From the NCBI GenBank assembly GCA_026391075.1, contig JAPLES010000064.1, positions 1 through 39,377 of the forward strand: DNA of 39,377 nucleotides. Reading direction: 5' to 3'. A program made the position numbers and the translations under genes. A model generated the notes under the pieces. The model was not told the origin of the DNA. It searched no databases and saw only the letters and a program-made list of their open reading frames with translations. This DNA comes from Bacteroidota bacterium (GTDB taxonomy: Bacteria; Bacteroidota; Bacteroidia; Chitinophagales; LD1). The stretch's first letter is position 1. Every line of letters begins with the position of its first letter. Positions 9,980-22,522 of the stretch are shown here, piece after piece.

Positions 9980-11896
9980 ATGAATAAATTTATTGTTCCC
10001 TTTGTTTTAATGTTTCCGCTTTTTTCTTTTTCGCAAGTAACTACTAAAGAAAATGCCAAAGGGAAAGCCAAAGAATTATTTGATAAAGCCGATAATAGTT
10101 TTGCTTTTGGCAAATTGTTTTTAGCCGATTCGCTTTTGCACGATGCTGTAAAAGAGAAGGATAATTTTATAGATGCCTGGATGCTGCTGGGTCAAATCAA
10201 TTTAGAATATCTCAAAAATTTTGAAGAAGCAAGAAAGGCTTATGAAAAAGTAAAGTTGTTACAAGCCAATTATTTAAGCGATGTAGATTTTCAGTTAGCA
10301 AGGTGTAATATGAATTTGGGAAATTATTCTGCATCTAAAACTTTGCTTACTTCTTTTTTGCATCAGGAAAAATTAGTGGCCACCGAAAGAATTCAAGCAG
10401 AAAAATATTTGACTGATTGCGATTTTTCAACTCAAGCAGTTACACACCCGGTAGATTTTAAACCCACGAATTTAGGCGGTAACGTAAACAGTTCGGCCGA
10501 TGAAAGTATGCCTTCTTTAACTGCCGATGGAAAGTATTTGTATTTCACGCGCCACTTTGGACAAGGCGCTCTTCAGGATGAAGATATTTTCATTTCGCTG
10601 CATACCAGCGCAGGTTTTGCTCCCGCAATAAGTGTGGGTGATATGATAAACACCGAACGGTTTATTGAAGGCGCGCAAAGTATTTCGCCAAGCGGCAAAT
10701 ATTTGTTCTTCACTTCTTCCGATAGACCCGATGGTTTAGGGCGTGCAGATATTTATATAAGCCGAAAGGTGGGTGATATTTGGGAGCGACCAAACAATAT
10801 GGGATCACCCATTAATACAGCCGGTTACGAAACGCAACCTTGCATTAGTGCCGATGGTAAGCAATTATTTTTCTCCGCCATTCGAGCTAACGGAAAAGGT
10901 GGTTGCGATATTTGGGTGAGTTATTTAAATGCCGATGGCACCTGGAATCAACCCGAAAATTTAGGCGATAGCATCAATACACCATTCGATGAAATGCGTC
11001 CGTATATTCATCCCGATGGTAACACGCTTTATTTTTCATCGAACGGATTACCTGGTTTGGGCAACTACGATATTTATGTTAGCCACAAAAATGCAAATGG
11101 TAAATGGGGCACGCCCGAAAACCTTGGTTACCCTATCAACACAGCCGGAGATGAATTAGGAATTTATGTAACTGCCGATGGCGAACATGCATTTTTTGCA
11201 GGCGAGCAAAAAGATAGCAGAGGGCAAATGGATATTTACACGTTTGATATGCCCGCGCATTTGCGTCCCGGCTATACCACGTATGTAAAGGGAAATGTTT
11301 TTGATAATGAAAGCCGCGAACCTGTTCAAGCAAATGTGCACGTATATGATCTGGAAACAGGAAAACTCTTTAGCACTTTTTCAACTGATCGAGTAAACGG
11401 AAATTTTCTTTCTACACTTCCTGCAGGTAGGAATTACGCAATAGAAGTAATGCGCGATGGCTACCTTTTCTTTTCAAAAAATATTTCGTTGAAGGATGTA
11501 AAAGAAGGAACGCCTTTTGAAATTGATATAGCGCTCAGCAAAATTCGAGTAGGAGAGAAGGTTGTGCTCAACAATATTTTTTTCGATTCCGAAAAATTTG
11601 AATTGAAAAAAGAATCCGCTTCGGAACTTTCGATTGTGATGAAGATGTTGGAAAAAAATCCCTCTATGAAAATTGAAATTGGCGGGCATACTGATAACAC
11701 AGGTAGCGATGAGAAAAATAAATCATTATCAGAAAGCCGGGCAAAAAGTGTTTACGAATATTTAGTAAACAAAGGAGTAGCTGCCGAAAGATTAAGCTAC
11801 AAAGGTTATGCAGCATCTAAACCTATTGCGGCTAATAACACGGCAGAAGGCAAATCGAAAAACAGAAGAACAGAGTTTGTAGTGCTGGCTATTTAA
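9980..11896 (+). CDS. TPR-PD40-CRD-OmpA envelope protein, PorE-like
   Basis: A 638-residue exported protein with four regions. After a signal peptide ending near residue 19, TPR-like helices span about 25-145 (ALLHDAVKEKD-like repeats). Five PD40/WD40-like beta-propeller blades follow at about 165-425, with INTAGYETQPCISADGKQL and DIYVS signatures. A carboxypeptidase-regulatory-like beta sandwich occupies about 435-505 (YVKGNVFDNESREPVQANV). A C-terminal OmpA domain (about 525-635) has the peptidoglycan-contact motif GGHTDNTGS and SESRAKSVYEYL. This is the exact domain order of PorE, the T9SS component that links the trans-envelope complex to peptidoglycan, but Bacteroidota carry many paralogues. 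It is not in an operon with other por genes, so the PorE role is only possible. Its 3' end overlaps the convergent sirtuin gene by 4 bases. Confidence 0.85.
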   Translation: MNKFIVPFVLMFPLFSFSQVTTKENAKGKAKELFDKADNSFAFGKLFLADSLLHDAVKEKDNFIDAWMLLGQINLEYLKNFEEARKAYEKVKLLQANYLSDVDFQLARCNMNLGNYSASKTLLTSFLHQEKLVATERIQAEKYLTDCDFSTQAVTHPVDFKPTNLGGNVNSSADESMPSLTADGKYLYFTRHFGQGALQDEDIFISLHTSAGFAPAISVGDMINTERFIEGAQSISPSGKYLFFTSSDRPDGLGRADIYISRKVGDIWERPNNMGSPINTAGYETQPCISADGKQLFFSAIRANGKGGCDIWVSYLNADGTWNQPENLGDSINTPFDEMRPYIHPDGNTLYFSSNGLPGLGNYDIYVSHKNANGKWGTPENLGYPINTAGDELGIYVTADGEHAFFAGEQKDSRGQMDIYTFDMPAHLRPGYTTYVKGNVFDNESREPVQANVHVYDLETGKLFSTFSTDRVNGNFLSTLPAGRNYAIEVMRDGYLFFSKNISLKDVKEGTPFEIDIALSKIRVGEKVVLNNIFFDSEKFELKKESASELSIVMKMLEKNPSMKIEIGGHTDNTGSDEKNKSLSESRAKSVYEYLVNKGVAAERLSYKGYAASKPIAANNTAEGKSKNRRTEFVVLAI

Positions 11897-12582
11897 TTTT
11901 CAGTCAACAAGAGATTGACCAAATAATCTACACCTATCGTAGCTTTTTCATTGATGAATTTTAGGTGAGGAACACGAGGCAGGGGTATATCATTAGCATC
12001 AATCAGCCATTTTGGAATTTCGTAACGGGTATAATTAACTAAACCCGCAGCGGGGTAAACCACCAATGAAGTTCCCACCACAATAAAGATATCTGCATCA
12101 CGAACAATAGGAGCAGCAGTTTCCATCAGCGGTACTGCTTCGCCAAACCAAACAATGTGAGGTCGCAATTGCGCGCCTCTTTCACATACATCACCTTCTA
12201 AAATATCTTTGTTCCAATTGTAAATCAAATTTTCATCCACACAGCTTCGCGCTTTCAAAAGTTCTCCGTGTAAATGAATCACATTTGCAGAGCCAGCACG
12301 TTCGTGTAAATCATCAACGTTTTGCGTTATGACGGTTACATCATATTTTCTTTCGAGTTCAGCTAGCGCAAAGTGCGCGCGATTGGGCTTGCGTTCGAGC
12401 AATTGCTTTCTGCGCTGGTTATAAAAATTCAAAACCAATTGTTGGTTATTATTCCAACCTTCAGTCGAAGCCACATCTTCCACTCTGTGATTTTCCCATA
12501 AGCCGCCAGAGTCGCGAAATGTTTTAATGCCGCTTTCGGCACTAATACCTGCACCCGTAAGCACAACAATTTTAGTTTTCAC
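11893..12582 (-). CDS. cobB: NAD-dependent protein deacylase, sirtuin (CobB-like)
   Basis: A 229-residue Sir2 enzyme that removes acyl groups from lysine using NAD+. GAGIS at 10-14 and FRD near 22-24 bind NAD, QNVD is at 87-90, the catalytic His is H105 in HLHGE, and VVGTSLVVYPAAG near 168-180 closes the Rossmann fold. Y54 and R57 (FYNQRR) match the Tyr-x-x-Arg pair that lets SIRT5/CobB-type sirtuins take succinyl or malonyl groups. Only two cysteines (C114 and C133) appear where many sirtuins have four for zinc, so the zinc site looks degenerate. It lies 44 bases downstream of a small exported-protein gene on the same strand and may be co-transcribed with it. Confidence 0.9.
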   Translation of the reverse strand: MKTKIVVLTGAGISAESGIKTFRDSGGLWENHRVEDVASTEGWNNNQQLVLNFYNQRRKQLLERKPNRAHFALAELERKYDVTVITQNVDDLHERAGSANVIHLHGELLKARSCVDENLIYNWNKDILEGDVCERGAQLRPHIVWFGEAVPLMETAAPIVRDADIFIVVGTSLVVYPAAGLVNYTRYEIPKWLIDANDIPLPRVPHLKFINEKATIGVDYLVNLLLTEN

Positions 12583-13210: not shown

Positions 13211-14293
13211 ATGAAAAAAGTAATTTTTCTTTCCTCTTTGATTTGTCTTTGGTTAATATGCTGCAAGCACAAGAACCTATCTGCTACTGTTGCTGTTTCT
13301 TCAACCGATTCTTCTGCTATTCATTTTGCCAATGAAAAACATTTGAAAAATGTAAAGCAATTGAGTTTTGGAGGAGAAAATGCAGAAGCCTATTTCAGTT
13401 TTGATGATTTGAAGTTGACCTTTCAGCATACCGATAAACCACATGGGTTAATGTGTGATCAAATTTTTTGTTTGAATCTGCAAGATTCTTCAAAACATTT
13501 AATAAGCACCGGAAAAGGGCGAACTACCTGTTCGTTTTTCTTGCCTGGCGATACACAAATACTTTATGCTTCTACGCATTTGCATTCAGATTCTTGTCCC
13601 GCAGAACCTGCTCATGTGCATGGTAAATATCTTTGGCCCATTTATGCTGATTACGAAATTTTTATTGCCGATTTGAAAGGAAACATTGTAAAACAGTTGA
13701 CCAAGAATAAATTCTACGATGCCGAAGCGGTAGTTTCGCCAAAGGGAAATAAAATACTTTTTACCAGCGACCGAAGTGGCGATTTGGAACTATATACCAT
13801 GAACTTAGATGGAAGTAACGTGAAGCAAATTACCAAGGAATTGGGTTACGATGGTGGTGCAAATTTTTCACCTGATGGTTCGCAAATTATTTGGCGGGCA
13901 TCGCATTTTGATACAGACTCTGAACGAGTTGAATACGAAGAGAACTTGAAAAAGCATTTGGTTTCGCCAATGAAAATGGAATTGTTTATTGCCAATAGCG
14001 ATGGAACCAACCGCAAGCAGTTGACCAATTTGGGCGGTGCTAACTGGGCTCCCAACTTTTCGCACGATGGCAAAAAAATAATTTTCAGCTCTAATCATAA
14101 ATCAAAAGCAATTCCATTTAATCTGTACTTTGTCAATACCGATGGAACAAATCTGGAACAGTTGACGTACGATAAAGTGTTTGATGCTTTTGCCATGTTT
14201 TCGAACGATGGAAAGAAATTAGTTTGGTGCAGTAACCGAAACAATGGCGGAACGCGGGAGACCAATATTTTTATAGCAGATTGGTTAGACTGA
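13211..14293 (+). CDS. PD40 (TolB-like) beta-propeller lipoprotein
   Basis: A 360-residue protein with a lipoprotein-type signal (LICLWLICCKHK, lipidated Cys at about 17-18). Residues about 50-355 form PD40/WD40-like blades with the repeated pattern SPDGxxIxW or SxDGKKIIFSS: examples are VSPKGNKILFTSDRSGDLEL, FSPDGSQIIWRASHF, FSHDGKKIIFSSNHK and FSNDGKKLVWCSNRN. The fold matches the C-terminal propeller of TolB, but there is no TolB N-terminal domain and no Tol/Pal genes nearby. Proteins like this are common in Bacteroidota and their ligands are mostly unknown. The gene is single, and the 6S-like RNA starts about 130 bases after its stop. Confidence 0.82.
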   Translation: MKKVIFLSSLICLWLICCKHKNLSATVAVSSTDSSAIHFANEKHLKNVKQLSFGGENAEAYFSFDDLKLTFQHTDKPHGLMCDQIFCLNLQDSSKHLISTGKGRTTCSFFLPGDTQILYASTHLHSDSCPAEPAHVHGKYLWPIYADYEIFIADLKGNIVKQLTKNKFYDAEAVVSPKGNKILFTSDRSGDLELYTMNLDGSNVKQITKELGYDGGANFSPDGSQIIWRASHFDTDSERVEYEENLKKHLVSPMKMELFIANSDGTNRKQLTNLGGANWAPNFSHDGKKIIFSSNHKSKAIPFNLYFVNTDGTNLEQLTYDKVFDAFAMFSNDGKKLVWCSNRNNGGTRETNIFIADWLD

Positions 14294-14390
14294 TAAAACA
14301 TGCGATAGAATGTGGAGAAATATTTTTGACCGCCATGCTTCTAAGTTTGAATTCGGTTTCTACATTCACTTCCAGTTCTTTGATAATTCT

Positions 14391-14418
14391 AAAATTCCGA
14401 ATTCTACATTCTGAATTT
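14391..14418. repeat. Degenerate intergenic heptamer repeat upstream of the 6S-like RNA
   Basis: Units AAAATTC, CGAATTC, TACATTC and TGAATTT share an ATTC core every 7 bases. Looser copies go back to about 14349. The tract covers the place where the promoter of the following RNA should be, including TACATTCTG at 14405-14413, a rough match to TAnnTTTG. Confidence 0.5.
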
Positions 14419-14424
14419 TCAAGA

Positions 14425-14640
14425 TACGCCCACACAGACCGATGCGTTAGATGGATAATTATTACAGAACCGGGCTTAAGTTGCAACGTTAATGGCGGGT
14501 CGCAATCATCCCGATAGCAATATCGGGATGGTCTTCGTCCAAAAAACAAGTTAACAGCGAATTACAGCAATGTTGCTAAGCCCAAATCCTGACTTGAGAT
14601 GCGTCTTAACGTCAGCATCTGTGTGGGTTTTTTATTTTTT
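14425..14640 (+). ncRNA. ssrS: Candidate 6S RNA (6S-Flavo-like) with intrinsic terminator
   Basis: A long-range fold is visible by eye. CCCACACAGA (14429-14438) pairs perfectly with TCTGTGTGGG (14618-14627). After a 6x6 internal loop, CGTTAGA (14445-14451) pairs with TCTTAACG (14604-14611) with one bulge. Then comes a symmetric 20x20 open bubble (14452-14471 and 14584-14603), closed by GGGCTTA (14472-14478) with TAAGCCC (14577-14583) and GCAAC (14483-14487) with GTTGC (14572-14576). GTTAA/TTAAC (14488/14551) and a 10-bp apical hairpin (14507-14530) finish it. A T-rich tail, TTTTTTATTTTTT, follows the closing stem, which fixes the strand as plus. A closing stem, large central bubble and apical stem in about 200 bases is the promoter-mimic plan of 6S RNA, which binds housekeeping RNA polymerase. 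Identity is inferred from structure only. A short palindromic repeat could account for the apical hairpin alone, not the rest. Confidence 0.65.
14507..14530. repeat. 10-bp hairpin CATCCCGATA/TATCGGGATG
   Basis: Perfect arms flank a GCAA loop. The sequence resembles the dispersed ATCCCGAT palindromes found in Bacteroidota genomes and here forms the apical hairpin of the 6S-like RNA. Confidence 0.7.
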
Positions 14641-15409
14641 ACAGCAACCTTTTTATAATCTTCAATTGGTGAGAATACTTTTTCAAGCATGCATTATGAA
14701 TGCCAAAGTGATCGAGTTTATCAATACGCACTTTACCCGAGGCATGAATAATTTTATTGTCCTTTAAAATAATTCCTACATGAATTATTTTTCCCTCCTC
14801 GTTATTAAAGAAAGCCAAATCGCCAGGCAACGTTTCCTCAATAAAATTTACAATTGCCCCTTGTTCTGCTTGCTGGTAAGCATCGCGTTTTAATTGAACG
14901 TTCATAAATTTAAAAACCAACTGGGTAAATCCTGAACAATCAATACCAAATGGTGAGCGCCCTCCCCACAAATAGGGAGCATTAAGATAGCGCATAGCTA
15001 CACGTTCTAACAGCGCATTTGTTTTTCCATCGGCCGTAATTGACTGACCGTTGTATATAAATTTCTCTTTGCCAATCTTAAAATTTATGCCATCAAAAAA
15101 AGGTAGGGAACTTCCTGCAACAATGGGCACCGAATCGGAACCTGATGCGGCCGTTCCCGATAACTCCATTGAAATACCACAATTGTTTTCACTAATACTA
15201 CGGAAGTCTTTTTCGATTAATTCATGAAACTGGTTACCGTCTATCCAACCTTGATAACCATCGTAACTACATTCTATCTGCAACCAATTTTTTTGTTCAT
15301 TAATAACCGAAAATGTTTCGCCAAATAAGAGCTGTGAAATCAATTCGCTTTTATGCGAAGGTTCACTTCTAACCGGAATGATACTTAAATGACCTATACC
15401 GTATTTCAT
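14639..15409 (-). CDS. SH3-NlpC/P60 cysteine peptidase (C40 family)
   Basis: A 256-residue peptidoglycan hydrolase. An N-terminal bacterial SH3-like domain covers about 5-65 (VRSEPSHKSELISQLLFGE, GWIDGNQ). A middle linker follows, and the NlpC/P60 catalytic domain covers about 130-250, with C158 in GIDCSGFTQ, H210 in HVGIIL and H222 in HASG. Enzymes of this layout cut gamma-D-Glu/diamino-acid stem peptides, often during muropeptide recycling. No signal peptide is apparent at MKYGIGHLSI, which points to a cytoplasmic recycling role like YkfC, though the start could be further upstream. The stop codon overlaps the last T residues of the 6S-like RNA on the opposite strand, so the two transcripts converge. 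Confidence 0.85.
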   Translation of the reverse strand: MKYGIGHLSIIPVRSEPSHKSELISQLLFGETFSVINEQKNWLQIECSYDGYQGWIDGNQFHELIEKDFRSISENNCGISMELSGTAASGSDSVPIVAGSSLPFFDGINFKIGKEKFIYNGQSITADGKTNALLERVAMRYLNAPYLWGGRSPFGIDCSGFTQLVFKFMNVQLKRDAYQQAEQGAIVNFIEETLPGDLAFFNNEEGKIIHVGIILKDNKIIHASGKVRIDKLDHFGIHNACLKKYSHQLKIIKRLL

Positions 15410-15605: not shown

Positions 15606-18600
15606 ATGTATATGAGAATGAATCCTGCCGCTATCATGCGTTGTTTTGTATTTGCACTGTTGTCTTTCTGTTTTACATCCCTAAACGCACAATGTAATTT
15701 TGTGTTTGGGCAAAACACAGTTGGTTGTGTGTCGTTATACTTGGCAGCATTAGCGCAAGAAACGGATAGTGCTACGGTAGTAGAACGCATTTGGACACTC
15801 ACAGGACCAACAGGAATTATTTTTACCAGCACTGTTGGAACAAATATTCCACAGTTTGATTATTTGATTGGCGATTCAGGTAGCTATTGCCTCACCTTGC
15901 GCAGTAGAAATGCTGCAGGTAACGTTTGCACCATTCAAAAGTGTGGAATTTATGCTGCGGCTTTACCTCATCTTGATTTTAGTTTTTCTCCAACTTTAGG
16001 TTGCGCGCCACTACTAGTTCAGGCGGTTTGTAATTCAACAGCAGGCAGTGGAACCATTGACTCGGTAGTAATTGATTGGGGCTGTGGAAGCCCTTACATA
16101 GGTACAACCTGTAATGGTGCTCCTATCCCACATTCTTATAACTGCCCACCCGGTTGTTACAAGGTTACCACAGTAGTAAGAAATACTTTTGGATGTTACT
16201 CCGATACCTCGTATCTAAACAAGATTTGTATTATTCCTAAGCCGCATGTTTTTTTTACCGCAAATATTACCACAGTTAATTGCACCACTACTCCTTTACC
16301 AGTAACTTTTACAGCAGATCCTACGGGCTTACCCTGCACTACGTACCATTGGTATGTAAACGATTCCTTGATTTACTCCGATTCGCTTTCCAATATATTT
16401 CAACACACCTTTCCGGTTGACCCATATTGTTACGATGTTAAATTAATAGTTACTCACTGCACCGGTTGCAGCGATTCTAGTACTCGGTTAGGATACATTT
16501 GCGTGCGCGATTTTCCAGTGATTAACTTCACTTCAAATGCCGATTCGGGATGTTATGCACCAGGAGACCCGTTCACGCTTATCTTAACCAACACGTCAGG
16601 AGCACCAGCGCAATTAACATGGAGTTTAAATGGCCCGGGCGCAGGCGGTCCTTTGGTTGTTCAATCCCCACAAACTGGCGGCTCGGCAAGTTGGAATCTA
16701 AGTACTCCGGGTATTTATTATGTAACAACATCGGGAACATTTGGTGCCGGTTGTACTACTTCGTTACCGTCTCAGCAAGTAATTGTTATTAGTGCCAAGC
16801 CAAATATAACTTTCACCACTGCCGATACTTTTAGTTGCAAGTTACCATACTTGGTTCATTACACTGCTTCGGGTTGTCCGAGTTGTGCACTAACATGGCA
16901 GGCAAATGGAGGATCTCCATCATCGGCCTCCGGTACAAATTTCAACACAACCTACAGTACCAATAATAATTTTGTAACAAGTTTAACGGCTGTAGATCCG
17001 AATGGATGTTCGTCAACCGTTACACAACAGTTAGTACGAACCAGACCATTGATTGGTAAAATTGGTTTTAACAAGGCAAAAGGATGTTCCCCTGTGTGTG
17101 TAACTTTTGACGATCTAACTAACGTGACCTTGCTGAATACAACCATCGCATCAGCCTGTTGGAGTTTTCTTGGACCAGTGAGTGTTCCCGTAATTCCAGG
17201 TGCATGTAAGGATACGATAAAGCGTTGTTTTGTAGACACTGGTTGTTATGCGGTGCAATTAGCTGTAACTACCGTTTCGGGTTGTACGGACACTGTTATT
17301 TTAGTGGATACTATTTGTGTAGGGGCAAAACCTATTTGCTCTATGAACGCCAGCCCGAATTCTATGTGCTTTGAAGCAGATTCGGTACATTTTGTCTTTG
17401 GTTGTACTAACTCTTTTGATCGAATTTTTTGTGATTTTGGAGATGGGGTAGCGGGTAATTTTTACACGCCTGATTTTTTCCATATTTATCAGGATACCGG
17501 TACCATTACAACCACTTGCTTTGCCTATAAGGATAGTTGCTCTTCCGATTCCTTTAATTTTGTTGTAAATATTTTTCCGCCAATAACCAAGTTCTTGGAT
17601 TCTACTTTTTGTGGCATGGGCGACACCGTATTTCTTTATAACAAGAGTATAGGTGCCACTAATTATCTATGGACATTTTGCAATGGAATTACATCTACCC
17701 TGCAAAACCCGCATGTCATACTTCCGCCATGTGATACTTGTAGTGTTAAACTTCAAACGCATAGCAGCGTTACCGGGTGCGACCATGAAAAAATACGAGT
17801 GATTTCCACTGCTTGTGATAGTGTGGCACTAACCCCTTTAGATACTATAGGCTGTCTGAATTTTACGGTAAAATACTATAACATATCCAGTAGTAAGACA
17901 CCAAGTTTTACCAGGTGGGATTGGGATACTTCTGCTATTACCGGCAATGGGCTAAACTGGACTGGTGCAGGTACTTCGGGAGGAGACCCTGTAAACCATA
18001 TCTACACAACGGCAGGAATTTTTGGTATTGCACTTAGAAATAAATCAGCCGCAGGATGCATAGATACTGCTTACGGTTCTGTAACCATTTGTGATTTGAT
18101 TCCTGAATTTGGACCATATTCTGTTTGTTTGCCTTTACCCATTTGTTTTACTAATTCTACTGTAGATCAATATTGCGCAATTACATCTTGGTTATGGGAT
18201 TTTGGTGATGGTACTACCGATACGGTTCAAAGCCCTTGCCACGTATTTGCTACCCAGGGAACGTATACCGTAACTCTAGCAGTAACAAATAGCGCAGGGT
18301 GCACCCGCACAGTTGTTCATGATGTTATTGCTTCATCACCTATTTTGATAAGCTACGATATTGATACTTTGCTGTGCGAAGGGTCAAATGTTTGCGCTAC
18401 CAATAGTTCACAAAATAATCTTCAATTCAATTGGCAAATATCTGGAGGTGCCACACCTATTCAGTCTCTGCTCTATGCTCCATGTTTTAATTTTCCGGCA
18501 GGGGCAGGCGATTACGATTTACATTTAAATATTTCGGCTTTAGGATTATGTACTGTTGACGATTATAGGACCATACATGTTCACAATCCTATTGCTGCTG

Positions 18601-21461
18601 GTTATGCCAGTCAAGATACTATCATTTGCCCTAATCCACCGCAATTGATTTCTTTCTACGATACCTCGCTATACACAGACCCTGATCCGCTCGGAACTAG
18701 AATTTGGGATTTTGGAGATTCGTCATACGCCTACGCAAATCCAGCAAATCACATTTATAGTTCACCTGGAAGATATGTTGTTACTTTGACAGTAACCACA
18801 GCAGATGGTTGTTCCGATATGGATACAATCGAAGTTATTGTAGTGTTAGGTCCTTTCGGTTCGTTAATTGTTGCGCCAACTGGAATGTGTGCATGCAAAG
18901 ATTCCATTACCTATACCCTTTCTACTTATAACGCGAATTGCGTTAAAGTTTTTACAGGATGTCAGGCATATGTTTCAACATATTGTCCTATTTCTCCAAT
19001 AGGCACCGAAACTAATCCAACAAACTTTAGCTTCAATTATTCTTTTTGTTTGACAGATACTTGTCAAGCGCAGGTTCTTTTTCAAGATGCCAGCGGTTGC
19101 CAGGTGGTTTTGGATAAACCATTTTTGTTGATTGACTCACCTGTGGTAAAATTTAGATTTGATAATTATGGGGTTTGCGTGGATGGAATAGTTTGTTTCT
19201 TTGATAATACTACTTATACGCTTCCTTCAAATCATTCCTTTACAGTTCAACGGCTTTGGGACTTTGGTGACCCTGCTTCAGGATCACTTAATTTTGACAA
19301 TGCTGCAAACCCTTGCCATTACTATGCAGGACCGGGAGGTTATAACGCAAAACTTTACATCTGGAGTAATTTAGGCTGTTTCGATTCAATAATAAGTAAC
19401 GTGGTTGTTGTTCCTGAGTTTCCAATTGCCGGCTCTTATGCCGATGATTCGTTGGTGTGTGCCAATAGTCCCATTTGTTTTCACGACTCCTCGTGGATTT
19501 ATCCTTTAACTGGTGCCGATTATTGGGTGTGGGATTTTGGTGACTCGCATATTGATACTACTCACTCTCCTGATATTTGCCATACCTATACTACAGGTGG
19601 ATACTACCGCGTAACTATGTGTGTGTATGATAGCATTGGTTGCCCCGATTGCGATTCGTCTATCGTGATTCGTGTAATTGATAACCCGATTGCAAATGCC
19701 GGTGGCGACCAAGCAATATGCAGGGGTTATACTACTATGCTGAATGGTTCAGGAGGAGTTGCTTGCCATTGGGAGCCGACAAGTTTAGTGTCGAACCCTG
19801 ATATTTGTAACCCGTTAATTACTTTGTTTAATGATACATACATTGTTTTGATAGTTACCGACCAATACTTATGTGCCGATACGGATACTGTGCAATTGAC
19901 TATATCCTATGTAACTGCGTCCTTCAATGTGGGTACTACTTTCTGTACAGATGATACGGTATGCGTTACCGACAACTCGAGTAGTTTTAACGGCTTACTT
20001 ACAAACTGGCTTTTTGATTATGGTGATGGAGACACTTTGATGGGAACTTATGTTTGTCACTACTACACCAATCCAGGTAACTACGACATTGTTGAAACTG
20101 CGATAAATGAACATGGATGTTTTGATACCGCAATGCATTCCATTCTAGTGTGGCCAAGCCCGCAAGCTTTATTTTCATTAAACGATACTGTGATTTGCGC
20201 GAATCAGCAGATATGTCCGTTGAATTTATCTACCAGCGTTTCGCCTATTTTAAATACGGATTGGAACTACGGATTTAATCAAGGAGGATTTAACGGGGCA
20301 AATTCTCCGTGTCATACATTTACTCCGCCTTTCTTCCCAACTTTTGATGTTTCATTGGCAATTACCGATCAAAATGGCTGTCATGATACTGCAGTAATTG
20401 TGGTTACAGTAAATGAATTACCAAATGCAAACTTTGCATGGACTACTTCTTGCGAAGATCAAGACATGCCATTATCGAGCACTTCAGTTCAAGGTGATGC
20501 ACCAATTGCGGTTTGTGAATGGACAATTTGGTTAGGCGCTACACCGCCAACTCTTGATAGCAACTGCAATACATCATTCCATTTTCCTCCGGGTTCTCAC
20601 GATGTGCAATTAGTAGTTACTGATTTGAATGGTTGTAGTGATACAATTATACAAACCGTGCTTACTGATTCGCTATCGCAGTTAGTTATTTATCCCGGTG
20701 ATACCACCATTTGTTTAGGTACTTCAGTTGACTACGCAGTTAGTGGAGTATTTGATCACATAACCTGGACTCCAAATATTTGGATAAGCGATGCTACTTC
20801 AGCAAATGTTACTATTAGTCCTTTAGCTGATATAGGATACATTGTAAGTGCAGTGAACGGAGTTTGTAATTCGGCAAGCGATACATTTACGATTCAAACT
20901 ATTCAGCAGATTCCAATTCAGGTGGAGGCTACTCCTGATCATATTGTTCTTGGTTTAAGTTCAAATTTGGCTTCTCAATATCCCGGCCATGTAGATAGTA
21001 TTGTCTGGACTCCTGATGAAACATTGGATTGTCATGCTTGTCCAAATCCTATTGCTACACCATTTCAAACAACTACGTACACAGCTACCATTTATTATAG
21101 CCGAAATGGAGTTACGTGTACTAGTAGTGCCTCTGCAACCATAGATGTACTAGGCACATGTGATGGAAGAAGTATTTACGTTCCCAATACCTTTACTCCA
21201 AACGGTGATGGACTAAACGATGTATTCATGATTCGCGGTTTACCTATAGCCAAGATCAATTATTTTAGAATATTCGACCGATGGGGGAAATTGATTTTTG
21301 AAGCTACGAATGGAGAAGGAAATAATCCACGTTGGGCATGGGATGGAAATGATATGCAAGGTGGGAAACTAAATCCTGCAGTGTTCGTTTACACCTATGA
21401 AATAGAATGCGTAAATCACGATATTTTTTCCGGCCACGGTAACGTAACCCTTGTAAGATAA
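15606..21461 (+). CDS. Giant Cys-rich PKD-repeat adhesin with T9SS type B sorting domain
   Basis: A 1951-residue secreted protein. The signal peptide ends near SLNAQ, and nearby ATGs at 15606, 15612 and 15618 are all possible starts. The rest is Ig/PKD-like modules, with WDFGD-type motifs near residues 862, 1032, 1214 and 1307 and LFDYGDGD near 1470. The C-terminal 100 residues form the gliding-motility-type (CHU_C, type B) sorting domain: VPNTFTPNGDGLNDVF, then IFDRWGKLIFEA and WAWDGNDMQGGKLNP. It is exceptionally rich in cysteine, with 13 in roughly the first 190 mature residues, and repeats such as SPCHVF and NSAGC recur. Its partner PorP/SprF gene starts 5 bases downstream, the standard pairing for SprB-like type B substrates. 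A role in adhesion, gliding or biofilm is likely; the ligand is unknown. Confidence 0.88.
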   Translation: MYMRMNPAAIMRCFVFALLSFCFTSLNAQCNFVFGQNTVGCVSLYLAALAQETDSATVVERIWTLTGPTGIIFTSTVGTNIPQFDYLIGDSGSYCLTLRSRNAAGNVCTIQKCGIYAAALPHLDFSFSPTLGCAPLLVQAVCNSTAGSGTIDSVVIDWGCGSPYIGTTCNGAPIPHSYNCPPGCYKVTTVVRNTFGCYSDTSYLNKICIIPKPHVFFTANITTVNCTTTPLPVTFTADPTGLPCTTYHWYVNDSLIYSDSLSNIFQHTFPVDPYCYDVKLIVTHCTGCSDSSTRLGYICVRDFPVINFTSNADSGCYAPGDPFTLILTNTSGAPAQLTWSLNGPGAGGPLVVQSPQTGGSASWNLSTPGIYYVTTSGTFGAGCTTSLPSQQVIVISAKPNITFTTADTFSCKLPYLVHYTASGCPSCALTWQANGGSPSSASGTNFNTTYSTNNNFVTSLTAVDPNGCSSTVTQQLVRTRPLIGKIGFNKAKGCSPVCVTFDDLTNVTLLNTTIASACWSFLGPVSVPVIPGACKDTIKRCFVDTGCYAVQLAVTTVSGCTDTVILVDTICVGAKPICSMNASPNSMCFEADSVHFVFGCTNSFDRIFCDFGDGVAGNFYTPDFFHIYQDTGTITTTCFAYKDSCSSDSFNFVVNIFPPITKFLDSTFCGMGDTVFLYNKSIGATNYLWTFCNGITSTLQNPHVILPPCDTCSVKLQTHSSVTGCDHEKIRVISTACDSVALTPLDTIGCLNFTVKYYNISSSKTPSFTRWDWDTSAITGNGLNWTGAGTSGGDPVNHIYTTAGIFGIALRNKSAAGCIDTAYGSVTICDLIPEFGPYSVCLPLPICFTNSTVDQYCAITSWLWDFGDGTTDTVQSPCHVFATQGTYTVTLAVTNSAGCTRTVVHDVIASSPILISYDIDTLLCEGSNVCATNSSQNNLQFNWQISGGATPIQSLLYAPCFNFPAGAGDYDLHLNISALGLCTVDDYRTIHVHNPIAAGYASQDTIICPNPPQLISFYDTSLYTDPDPLGTRIWDFGDSSYAYANPANHIYSSPGRYVVTLTVTTADGCSDMDTIEVIVVLGPFGSLIVAPTGMCACKDSITYTLSTYNANCVKVFTGCQAYVSTYCPISPIGTETNPTNFSFNYSFCLTDTCQAQVLFQDASGCQVVLDKPFLLIDSPVVKFRFDNYGVCVDGIVCFFDNTTYTLPSNHSFTVQRLWDFGDPASGSLNFDNAANPCHYYAGPGGYNAKLYIWSNLGCFDSIISNVVVVPEFPIAGSYADDSLVCANSPICFHDSSWIYPLTGADYWVWDFGDSHIDTTHSPDICHTYTTGGYYRVTMCVYDSIGCPDCDSSIVIRVIDNPIANAGGDQAICRGYTTMLNGSGGVACHWEPTSLVSNPDICNPLITLFNDTYIVLIVTDQYLCADTDTVQLTISYVTASFNVGTTFCTDDTVCVTDNSSSFNGLLTNWLFDYGDGDTLMGTYVCHYYTNPGNYDIVETAINEHGCFDTAMHSILVWPSPQALFSLNDTVICANQQICPLNLSTSVSPILNTDWNYGFNQGGFNGANSPCHTFTPPFFPTFDVSLAITDQNGCHDTAVIVVTVNELPNANFAWTTSCEDQDMPLSSTSVQGDAPIAVCEWTIWLGATPPTLDSNCNTSFHFPPGSHDVQLVVTDLNGCSDTIIQTVLTDSLSQLVIYPGDTTICLGTSVDYAVSGVFDHITWTPNIWISDATSANVTISPLADIGYIVSAVNGVCNSASDTFTIQTIQQIPIQVEATPDHIVLGLSSNLASQYPGHVDSIVWTPDETLDCHACPNPIATPFQTTTYTATIYYSRNGVTCTSSASATIDVLGTCDGRSIYVPNTFTPNGDGLNDVFMIRGLPIAKINYFRIFDRWGKLIFEATNGEGNNPRWAWDGNDMQGGKLNPAVFVYTYEIECVNHDIFSGHGNVTLVR

Positions 21462-21466
21462 GCACT

Positions 21467-22522
21467 ATGAAAAAACTTTTATCGAAAATCATTCTTGTAG
21501 TAGTTGTGTTTTGTACAACCATACTGAATGCGCAAGACATTCACTTTTCACAATACAATTCATCGCCAATGGCTTTAAATCCTGCATTGGCGGGAATGAA
21601 CCAATGCGATTATCGAGTGTATTTAAACTTCAGAACACAATGGCTCACCGTGTCTGATGGGAATACCTATCGCACCTTTGCAGGAGGAGCGGATATGAGT
21701 ATAGGTAAGGTGACCAAGTACAACAGTTTTGCTGGAATTGGCATTTCATTTTTCAGTGATCAGGCGGGTTCTATCAATTTTAATTCGAACCGCGTTGACG
21801 TTTCATTTGCGTACCATTTTATGTTGAACCGAAAGGGAACCATGCAAATTTCGGCAGGCCTGCAAGGTGCATTTAATCACAGAAGCATTGACCCTTCGAA
21901 AGCAACTTTCGATTCGCAGTTTGATCCGAGCACAGGAATTCCTGACCCGGCTGGTCAACGCGAAAGTTTTGGAAGAACCAAAGTGATGTTTGGTGATGCA
22001 GGTTTAGGTTTATTATATAGCGCTATTGTAAAAGGTGGAACTAATTTTTATTTCGGGTTTGCATTAAGTCATATTAACCAACCCAAAGTTTCTTTTTATC
22101 CAAGCGGGCAAAATGCGAGTTCAACAGCTAACGAACGCTTGGCTATGAAGATTACTTTGCACGGAGGTGCAGCTATACCAATTGGTGCTAGATTAACAGT
22201 GATGCCAAATGTTTTGTTTTTGAAACAAGGCCCTTCGTATGAGTTTAATGTAGGCTGTAATTTCAAAACGGCTTTGGGCAATCACCCGGCAACAAGTAAA
22301 ACTGCGTTGCATTTGGGTGCACAATATCGTGGTTTGTTAGACGCTGTAATTATTCTGGCCCGAGTGGATGTAAAAGGATTTAGCTGCGGATTGAGTTACG
22401 ATATAAACGTTTCCAAGTTATTGCCTGCTTCTAAATCCGTTGGAGCGCCAGAAATTTCATTGATGTATCAGGGTTGCGCGCGTAAAAAACCCCGCCCGGG
22501 ACATTGCCCGGTTATGTTCTAA
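21467..22522 (+). CDS. PorP/SprF family T9SS outer-membrane protein
   Basis: A 351-residue barrel protein with a signal peptide ending near LNAQ. The family opening DIHFSQYNSSPMALNPALAG is unmistakable, followed by NLNFRTQW-like strands and a SYDINVSKL C-terminal segment. PorP/SprF proteins are outer-membrane partners that bind the type B sorting domain of a neighbouring giant substrate and hold it at the surface or help its export. This one follows the adhesin gene after 5 bases, so it is its presumed partner and translationally linked. The C-terminal tail ends YQGCARKKPRPGHCPVMF, with two cysteines, which is a little unusual. It converges on bshB1 with 15 bases between the stops. Confidence 0.9.
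   Translation: MKKLLSKIILVVVVFCTTILNAQDIHFSQYNSSPMALNPALAGMNQCDYRVYLNFRTQWLTVSDGNTYRTFAGGADMSIGKVTKYNSFAGIGISFFSDQAGSINFNSNRVDVSFAYHFMLNRKGTMQISAGLQGAFNHRSIDPSKATFDSQFDPSTGIPDPAGQRESFGRTKVMFGDAGLGLLYSAIVKGGTNFYFGFALSHINQPKVSFYPSGQNASSTANERLAMKITLHGGAAIPIGARLTVMPNVLFLKQGPSYEFNVGCNFKTALGNHPATSKTALHLGAQYRGLLDAVIILARVDVKGFSCGLSYDINVSKLLPASKSVGAPEISLMYQGCARKKPRPGHCPVMF

Follow-up and report, generated by a model that had tools for sequence, protein, structure and literature searches.

In the window, by which we mean the whole analysed stretch of 39,377 nucleotides, an RNA gene on the plus strand is flanked by a PD40 beta-propeller gene (13211-14293, plus strand) and a convergent NlpC/P60 gene (14639-15409, minus strand). 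The initial annotation had proposed a 6S-type RNA between these two genes, and the gene coordinates agree with that placing. They also agree with its remark that the RNA tail runs over the opposing NlpC stop: the U-rich tail TTTTTTATTTTTT (14628-14640) overlaps the stop of the NlpC reading frame (14639-14641, minus strand). Near the RNA there is also a Sir2-family gene on the minus strand (11893-12582), and positions 15606-22522 of the window hold the gene of a PKD protein (1951 aa) bearing a type IX secretion signal of the CHU_C kind, and then a PorP/SprF gene.

The plus strand of 14425-14640 has a minimum free energy (MFE) of -75.4 kcal/mol, compared with a mean of -50.0 for shuffled sequences (z -5.83), and none of 200 dinucleotide shuffles folds as low. 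The minus strand of the region also folds (z -4.41); the U-tail is absent there, and both the Rfam and the family models match the plus strand.

A closing stem, a large central bubble and an upper arm make up the structure, as in the 6S class. The closing stem had been drawn in two parts, and in the consensus these are P1a (9 bp) and P1b (10 bp). The bubble is symmetric as drawn, but the 25-genome consensus makes it 18x18 and not 20x20; the single-sequence MFE pairs a few bases within it. The second stem of 7+5 pairs is present in the fold as GGGCTTA/TAAGCCC and then GCAAC/GTTGC. The drawing, right up to this point, fails at the apex, where instead of a simple hairpin we find a conserved internal loop (GCGGG/ATTA), the P4 stem and, beyond it, two hairpins (P5 and P6) that meet in a junction. 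The parts of the gene are the following, all on the plus strand.

14361-14369, plus: predicted -7 promoter element TACATTCAC, a TAnnTTTG variant (excess of TAnnTT[TC] in family loci)
14375-14383, plus: boxA-like element GTTCTTTGA at the predicted transcript start (family loci and 16S leaders)
14384-14428, plus: leader of the predicted precursor, containing a weak hairpin (fold of 14374-14645)
14429-14627, plus: body of the 6S-type RNA, Bacteroidales-1 / 6S-Flavo homologue (fold, Rfam, family models, covariation)
14429-14437, plus: 5' arm of the closing stem P1a, partner 14619-14627 (100% of cells paired; 8 of 9 pairs never vary)
14444-14453, plus: 5' arm of P1b, adjoining the bubble, predicted pRNA template, partner 14602-14612 (98.0% of cells paired; two-sided changes in 5 of 10 pairs)
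14454-14471, plus: 5' strand of the bubble (consensus structure)
14472-14475, plus: 5' arm of P2, partner 14580-14583 (family alignment)
14483-14494, plus: 5' arm of P3, partner 14565-14576 (family alignment)
14491-14499, plus: 5' side of the internal-loop motif, AATGGCGGG, with the 3' side GAATTACA at 14559-14566 (invariant in 25 family sequences; recurs class-wide)
14505-14532, plus: apical hairpin P5, variable in sequence and length (6 of 6 pairs changed on both sides)
14533-14550, plus: hairpin P6 with the nearly invariant loop CTTCGTCCAAAAAACAAG (family alignment)
14584-14601, plus: 3' strand of the bubble, predicted non-template side (consensus structure)
14589-14615, plus: alternative 3' hairpin CTGACTTGAG/CTTAACGTCAG, which excludes P1b (folds in 25 of 25 family members)
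14628-14640, plus: U-rich terminator tail TTTTTTATTTTTT (sequence and family alignment)

The internal loop AATGGCGGG/GGATTACA (14491-14499 with 14559-14566) recurs across the class, roughly at the place expected for a -33-like contact, and is possibly a site for sigma region 4; three spurious short matches were left out of this class-wide comparison. Inspection by eye of Bacteroidales-1 and 6S-Flavo sequences showed no counterpart of the P6 hairpin with its loop CGTCCAMAAAAC; a similar hairpin occurs in family f36 (L124, L125). A pattern that includes the P6 loop matched 23 contig stretches, from metagenome-assembled Bacteroidota, 4 of the 23 being Chitinophagales. The sequence conservation of the apex (the GGCGGG/GGATTACA loop and the P6 loop) exceeds the level usual for 6S RNAs, which hints at an extra function.

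Covariation and homology

How well is this structure conserved? A DNA search of 60 relatives matched 25 genomes, all of family f1, and the family model finds one copy in 25 of the 30 f1 genomes. That model does not find the RNA in G003, G010, G012, G028 and G029, of which G010 is 96% complete and the other four 69-80%. In the family alignment of 25 sequences, 98.1% of the 1175 cells hold standard pairs, and 22 of the 47 pairs have two-sided changes. The cells with two-sided changes number 137, compared with 39.0 in shuffles, and none of 500 shuffles has as many; when the partners are slid as a control (six slides), pairing falls to 31-47%. The signal is carried by P1b, P3, P4 and P5, while P1a is weak evidence alone because it is nearly invariant. 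The initial annotation had named covariation in relatives as a check, and the paired arms do covary strongly. The locus looks like a real and strongly conserved small RNA gene of the 6S kind. As in the 6S class it is a stand-alone gene, with one copy in each family genome where it was found and neighbours mostly not conserved: among the 25 loci (the window's own included, some shortened by contig ends), a PD40 gene flanks 7 and an NlpC gene 3.

A scan of the window at the Rfam gathering scores gives no match. Below them, the full model of RF01693 (Bacteroidales-1, model positions 1-179) matches the window RNA with 36.3 bits (E 1.5e-4 in 451 nt), not reaching its gathering cut-off of 60 bits, and this match is its sole one in the window's own genome up to E 10 (E 2.9e-4). 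RF01685 (6S-Flavo) has no match in that genome, scanning the 451 nt with it up to E 10 gave none either, and no other Rfam 6S model matches the window RNA. These are the Rfam comparisons that had been suggested at the outset, and the 6S-Flavo match elsewhere in the genome that would have counted against the candidate was looked for and not found. The accompanying remark that genomes of this branch often go without a 6S call holds for the relatives, since none of the 60 reaches the RF01693 cut-off.

We used two models of our own, R1 from 23 family sequences only, and R2 from 26 diverse sequences, none of them from family f75. In G165, R1 hits at E 5.8e-13 the Bacteroidales-1 RNA to which RF01693 gives 184 bits (the E-values of R1 and R2 are rough), and at E < 1e-5 it finds 17 of 24 loci in other families, loci that had been picked because the Rfam models or R1 found them. 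Whole-model homology of the window RNA to Bacteroidales-1 is found in both directions. Of the five 6S-Flavo sites in f75, R2 finds those of G123 and G159 and misses those of G192, G222 and G251. RF01693 and RF01685 overlap on the same RNA in two genomes, G080 and G222, which makes both of them and the window RNA look like members of a single 6S family spread across Bacteroidia, most of which the Rfam cut-offs miss. Covariation, the two-way homology to Bacteroidales-1, and the finding of 6S-Flavo sites by R2 all support the 6S-type interpretation first given to the locus.

Among 198 genomes of the class Bacteroidia, R2 has a match in 55 (13 of them training genomes), as opposed to 14 for RF01693 and 7 for RF01685 at E <= 0.001, which fills an annotation gap. 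In the order set, 72 of 198 genomes have an R2 match (15 of the 72 in training). Of the 55 class genomes, 54 have a single match; the two matches in G104 (G104:C93:5481-5672 and G104:C37:11968-12152) are possibly two 6S paralogues. At 80 non-training loci, 88.9% of cells pair and 47 of 47 pairs have two-sided changes, in an alignment fitted to the structure, which favours this result.

An alternative hairpin in the 3' strand

In 6S RNA of the E. coli type, pRNA synthesis unwinds the stem that adjoins the bubble, and the 3' strand of that stem and the 3' bubble strand then form a 9-bp hairpin (PMC8876501, in excerpt). The corresponding pairing in the window joins 14589-14598 to 14605-14615 and overlaps the 3' arm of P1b. 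The 3' strand folds into an alternative hairpin of this kind in 25 of 25 family members, with a median z of -4.04 versus 0.18 for the 5' strand. Blocking the 5' strand in silico, as a pRNA would, gives a hairpin of 9-12 bp in all 25; P1a is kept in every one of them and P2 in 24 (G019 loses P2). In 13 of the 25 the free MFE already favours the alternative hairpin over P1b, which places the two states at similar energies. Taken by itself the hairpin covaries weakly: pairing holds in 86.2% of cells, 3 of 10 pairs have two-sided changes, and values at least as high as those observed turn up in 21-77 of 500 shuffles.

Outside f1 the 3' hairpin is patchy, with 8 of 22 loci at the 5% level and none for the 5' strand. 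A second, class-wide set gives 16 of 80 loci at the same level, a count in which each strand included one P2 base too many, and again none for the 5' strand. The hairpin is absent in all five genomes over the RF01693 cut-off, which are presumably Bacteroidales.

A boxA-like element upstream of the RNA

BoxA is a signal known from ribosomal RNA. The boxA-like 9-mer GTTCTTTGA has one copy in the window where 0.62 are expected, which is unsurprising, and the weight of the boxA case therefore rests on the relatives. Counting the 24 readable family loci (L009, where the contig leaves 25 nt upstream, is left out), the exact 9-mer is present in 18, compared to 0.06 expected from the flanks, and GTTCTT[TC][GTC][AC] lies upstream of the RNA in all 24. 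At 23 family loci, between 17 and 92 nt separate the start of the box from the RNA. In 22 of the 24, a TAnnTT[TC] element stands no more than 18 nt ahead of the box (1.22 expected from the flanks), an excess that is partly post hoc because the pattern was chosen after viewing the sequences; its spacing to the box is mostly -13 or -14. TTG occurs 18-21 nt further upstream, at the -33 distance, in 11 of the 24 (0.19 expected), with none in the window's own promoter. Since TAnnTTTG spans -12 to -5 (PMC9723704, in excerpt), the predicted transcript start falls at or adjoining the box, and the transcript seems to begin with a boxA signal. As the promoter we also considered canonical TAnnTTTG in the 90 nt ahead of the box, and rejected it, since it occurs at 2 of 24 family loci against 0.9 expected.

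Outside the family, the strict form GTTCTTTGA is found at 0 of 25 loci, [GT][CT]TCTT[TC]NA at 2 (0.94 expected), and G[CT]TCTTT at 6 (0.53 expected). This last pattern was chosen after viewing sequences, and we applied it to 80 other Bacteroidia 6S loci, a set previously unseen except for G123 and G159: it lies within 110 nt before 31 of them, the reverse complement before 3, and the reversed pattern before none. It is absent at the 6S loci of families f11 (0/14) and f17 (0/16). Related sequences are not independent, and thus such per-locus counts overstate the number of events. In genus g4 (L020, L021, L022, L024) a strong leader hairpin followed by TTTTT can be seen by eye between the box and the 6S body; by eye it is like an intrinsic terminator that a Nus complex would have to pass.

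The same 9-mer is present in 29 of 30 16S leaders of the window's own and related genomes (30 loci from 33 matched places), so the 6S box is identical to the rRNA leader box. Its first 7 bases are those of the published boxA GYTCTTTAANA, a gamma-proteobacterial consensus (PMC5725501, in excerpt). A -7 element adjoins the box in just 3 of the 29 16S leaders, which speaks against the box being a promoter part. For tmRNA, the box lies within 110 nt upstream at 15 of 16 family loci, with the sixteenth at -113; 16 of the 17 tmRNA loci with a box have the -7 element adjoining, and in 15 of the 17 the spacing is exactly -12. The tmRNA loci L245-L266 of family f1 (e.g. G000:C20:6500-6867) carry TAnnTTTG-N4-GTTCTTTGA, so that the tmRNA transcripts, too, would be predicted to begin with a boxA-like sequence. 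Before RNase P RNA the box is absent at 15 of 15 readable family loci, a count without the G013 locus (55 nt). Outside the family, G[CT]TCTTT stands at 3 of 11 RNase P RNA loci and at 1 of 7 tmRNA loci; the box thus also occurs beyond rRNA, tmRNA and 6S.

Could GTTCTTTGA be a promoter part or a favoured transcript start, and not boxA, in front of what would still be a 6S RNA? Its fixed spacing to the -7 box, at tmRNA and 6S loci alike, is what one would cite for such a reading, but the 16S leaders carry the same 9-mer nearly always and the adjacent -7 element seldom, the agreement with the published boxA extends over seven bases (PMC5725501, in excerpt), and the family RNase P RNA loci do without the box. 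We find this reading rather unlikely, and retain boxA.

Identity, proposed working and known systems

6S RNA imitates an open promoter and holds back RNA polymerase. Taken as a whole, the observations are very probably best explained by a trans-acting 6S RNA that works as proposed below. An accident of folding or a pseudogene relic hardly deserves credence: the folding of a single sequence is weak evidence by itself, but here z is -5.83, the pairs covary in relatives, and 25 of 30 f1 genomes have a copy. Nor do we give much room to a cis-acting element, either the 3' UTR of the upstream gene or the leader of a neighbour. The RNA does sit after a gene of its own strand and before a convergent one, but it has a promoter motif and a U-tail of its own, the next gene downstream runs in the opposite direction, and the neighbours are mostly not conserved; we rejected the cis-regulatory reading on this synteny (PD40 at 7/25 loci, NlpC at 3/25), and regard it as very improbable. 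A conserved structured RNA with a function other than 6S is improbable too, if less so. Rfam calls Bacteroidales-1 a 6S RNA just as 'suggested', a 2010 table left its role open (PMC2864571, in excerpt), and the apex is conserved beyond the need of polymerase mimicry; against this, the locus is shared with the 6S-Flavo model, the bubble is symmetric and accompanied by a release-type hairpin, and pRNAs are reported for Bacteroides 6S (PMC7366714, in excerpt).

We thus return to the 6S reading: by homology and plan the RNA is, as far as sequence can tell, a 6S RNA, and its apex, alternative hairpin and leader make it a new variant. The gene would be transcribed from a promoter whose -7 box lies just upstream of the boxA element, and the precursor would begin at or adjoining GUUCUUUGA, be elongated by the same Nus (NusB/S10) complex as rRNA, and then be trimmed. 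The mature RNA would offer its bubble to sigma-A RNA polymerase as if it were an open promoter, keeping the enzyme off real promoters. When nucleotides return, the polymerase would use the 5' strand of the bubble and the 5' arm of P1b as template for a short pRNA, and the freed P1b 3' arm and 3' bubble strand would snap into the 9-12 bp hairpin, ejecting the RNA. For the phylum, B. thetaiotaomicron 6S and its pRNAs have been seen by dRNA-seq (PMC7366714, in excerpt), the equivalence of that 6S to the RF01693 locus being an assumption, and a 6S transcript is reported for F. psychrophilum (PMC9723704, in excerpt).

The alternative 3' hairpin in all family members and the boxA at the predicted transcript start look like new features; in the open-licence literature, which omits many papers, we found no paper that brings together boxA, 6S RNA and antitermination. 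We lean slightly towards a wider proposal, in which 6S, rRNA and, at least in f1, tmRNA form a boxA regulon in many Bacteroidia, with transcripts that begin at GUUCUUUGA or adjoining it and are made by Nus-modified polymerase, and in which f1 6S RNA is released through an E. coli-type 3' hairpin that Bacteroidales-1 proper lacks. If this is true, the 6S brake on polymerase is itself made by rRNA-type elongation machinery, which ties the brake to ribosome synthesis. The proposal offers a testable link from the rRNA antitermination factors to 6S as a global regulator of polymerase, and to tmRNA. The analysis of the window RNA also unites RF01693 and RF01685 in one family, and it gives a prediction of the 6S RNAs that may be released in the E. 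coli manner.

With E. coli 6S RNA (SsrS) the window RNA shares the closing stem, the central bubble and, by prediction, a 3' hairpin that excludes the stem adjoining the bubble (PMC8876501, in excerpt); the two differ in that no Rfam match connects SsrS to the window RNA, and the excerpt of that paper does not mention a boxA leader. The rRNA leader boxA of Nus-complex leaders is the identical 9-mer in the 16S leaders of the own and related genomes, whereas the window box stands at the predicted start of a small RNA gene and adjoins a -7 box. 6S-Flavo (RF01685) has the bubble and the internal loop in common with the window RNA, and a 3' hairpin like that of the window, AAACUUGU/ACGAGUUU, occurs in three genomes; its apex, however, is smaller, and its model has no match to the window RNA. 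Compared with Bacteroidales-1 (RF01693), the window RNA has the extra apical hairpin P6, a score of 36.3 where the cut-off is 60, the 3' hairpin that 5 of 5 genomes over that cut-off lack, and a boxA-like leader, in place of which five loci over the cut-off carry TAnnTTTG in the 60 nt preceding the RNA. What the two share is the full-length alignment, the bubble plan with its ACCGnG/CnCAAAUC edge, and the AATGGCGGGC/GGATTACA internal loop.
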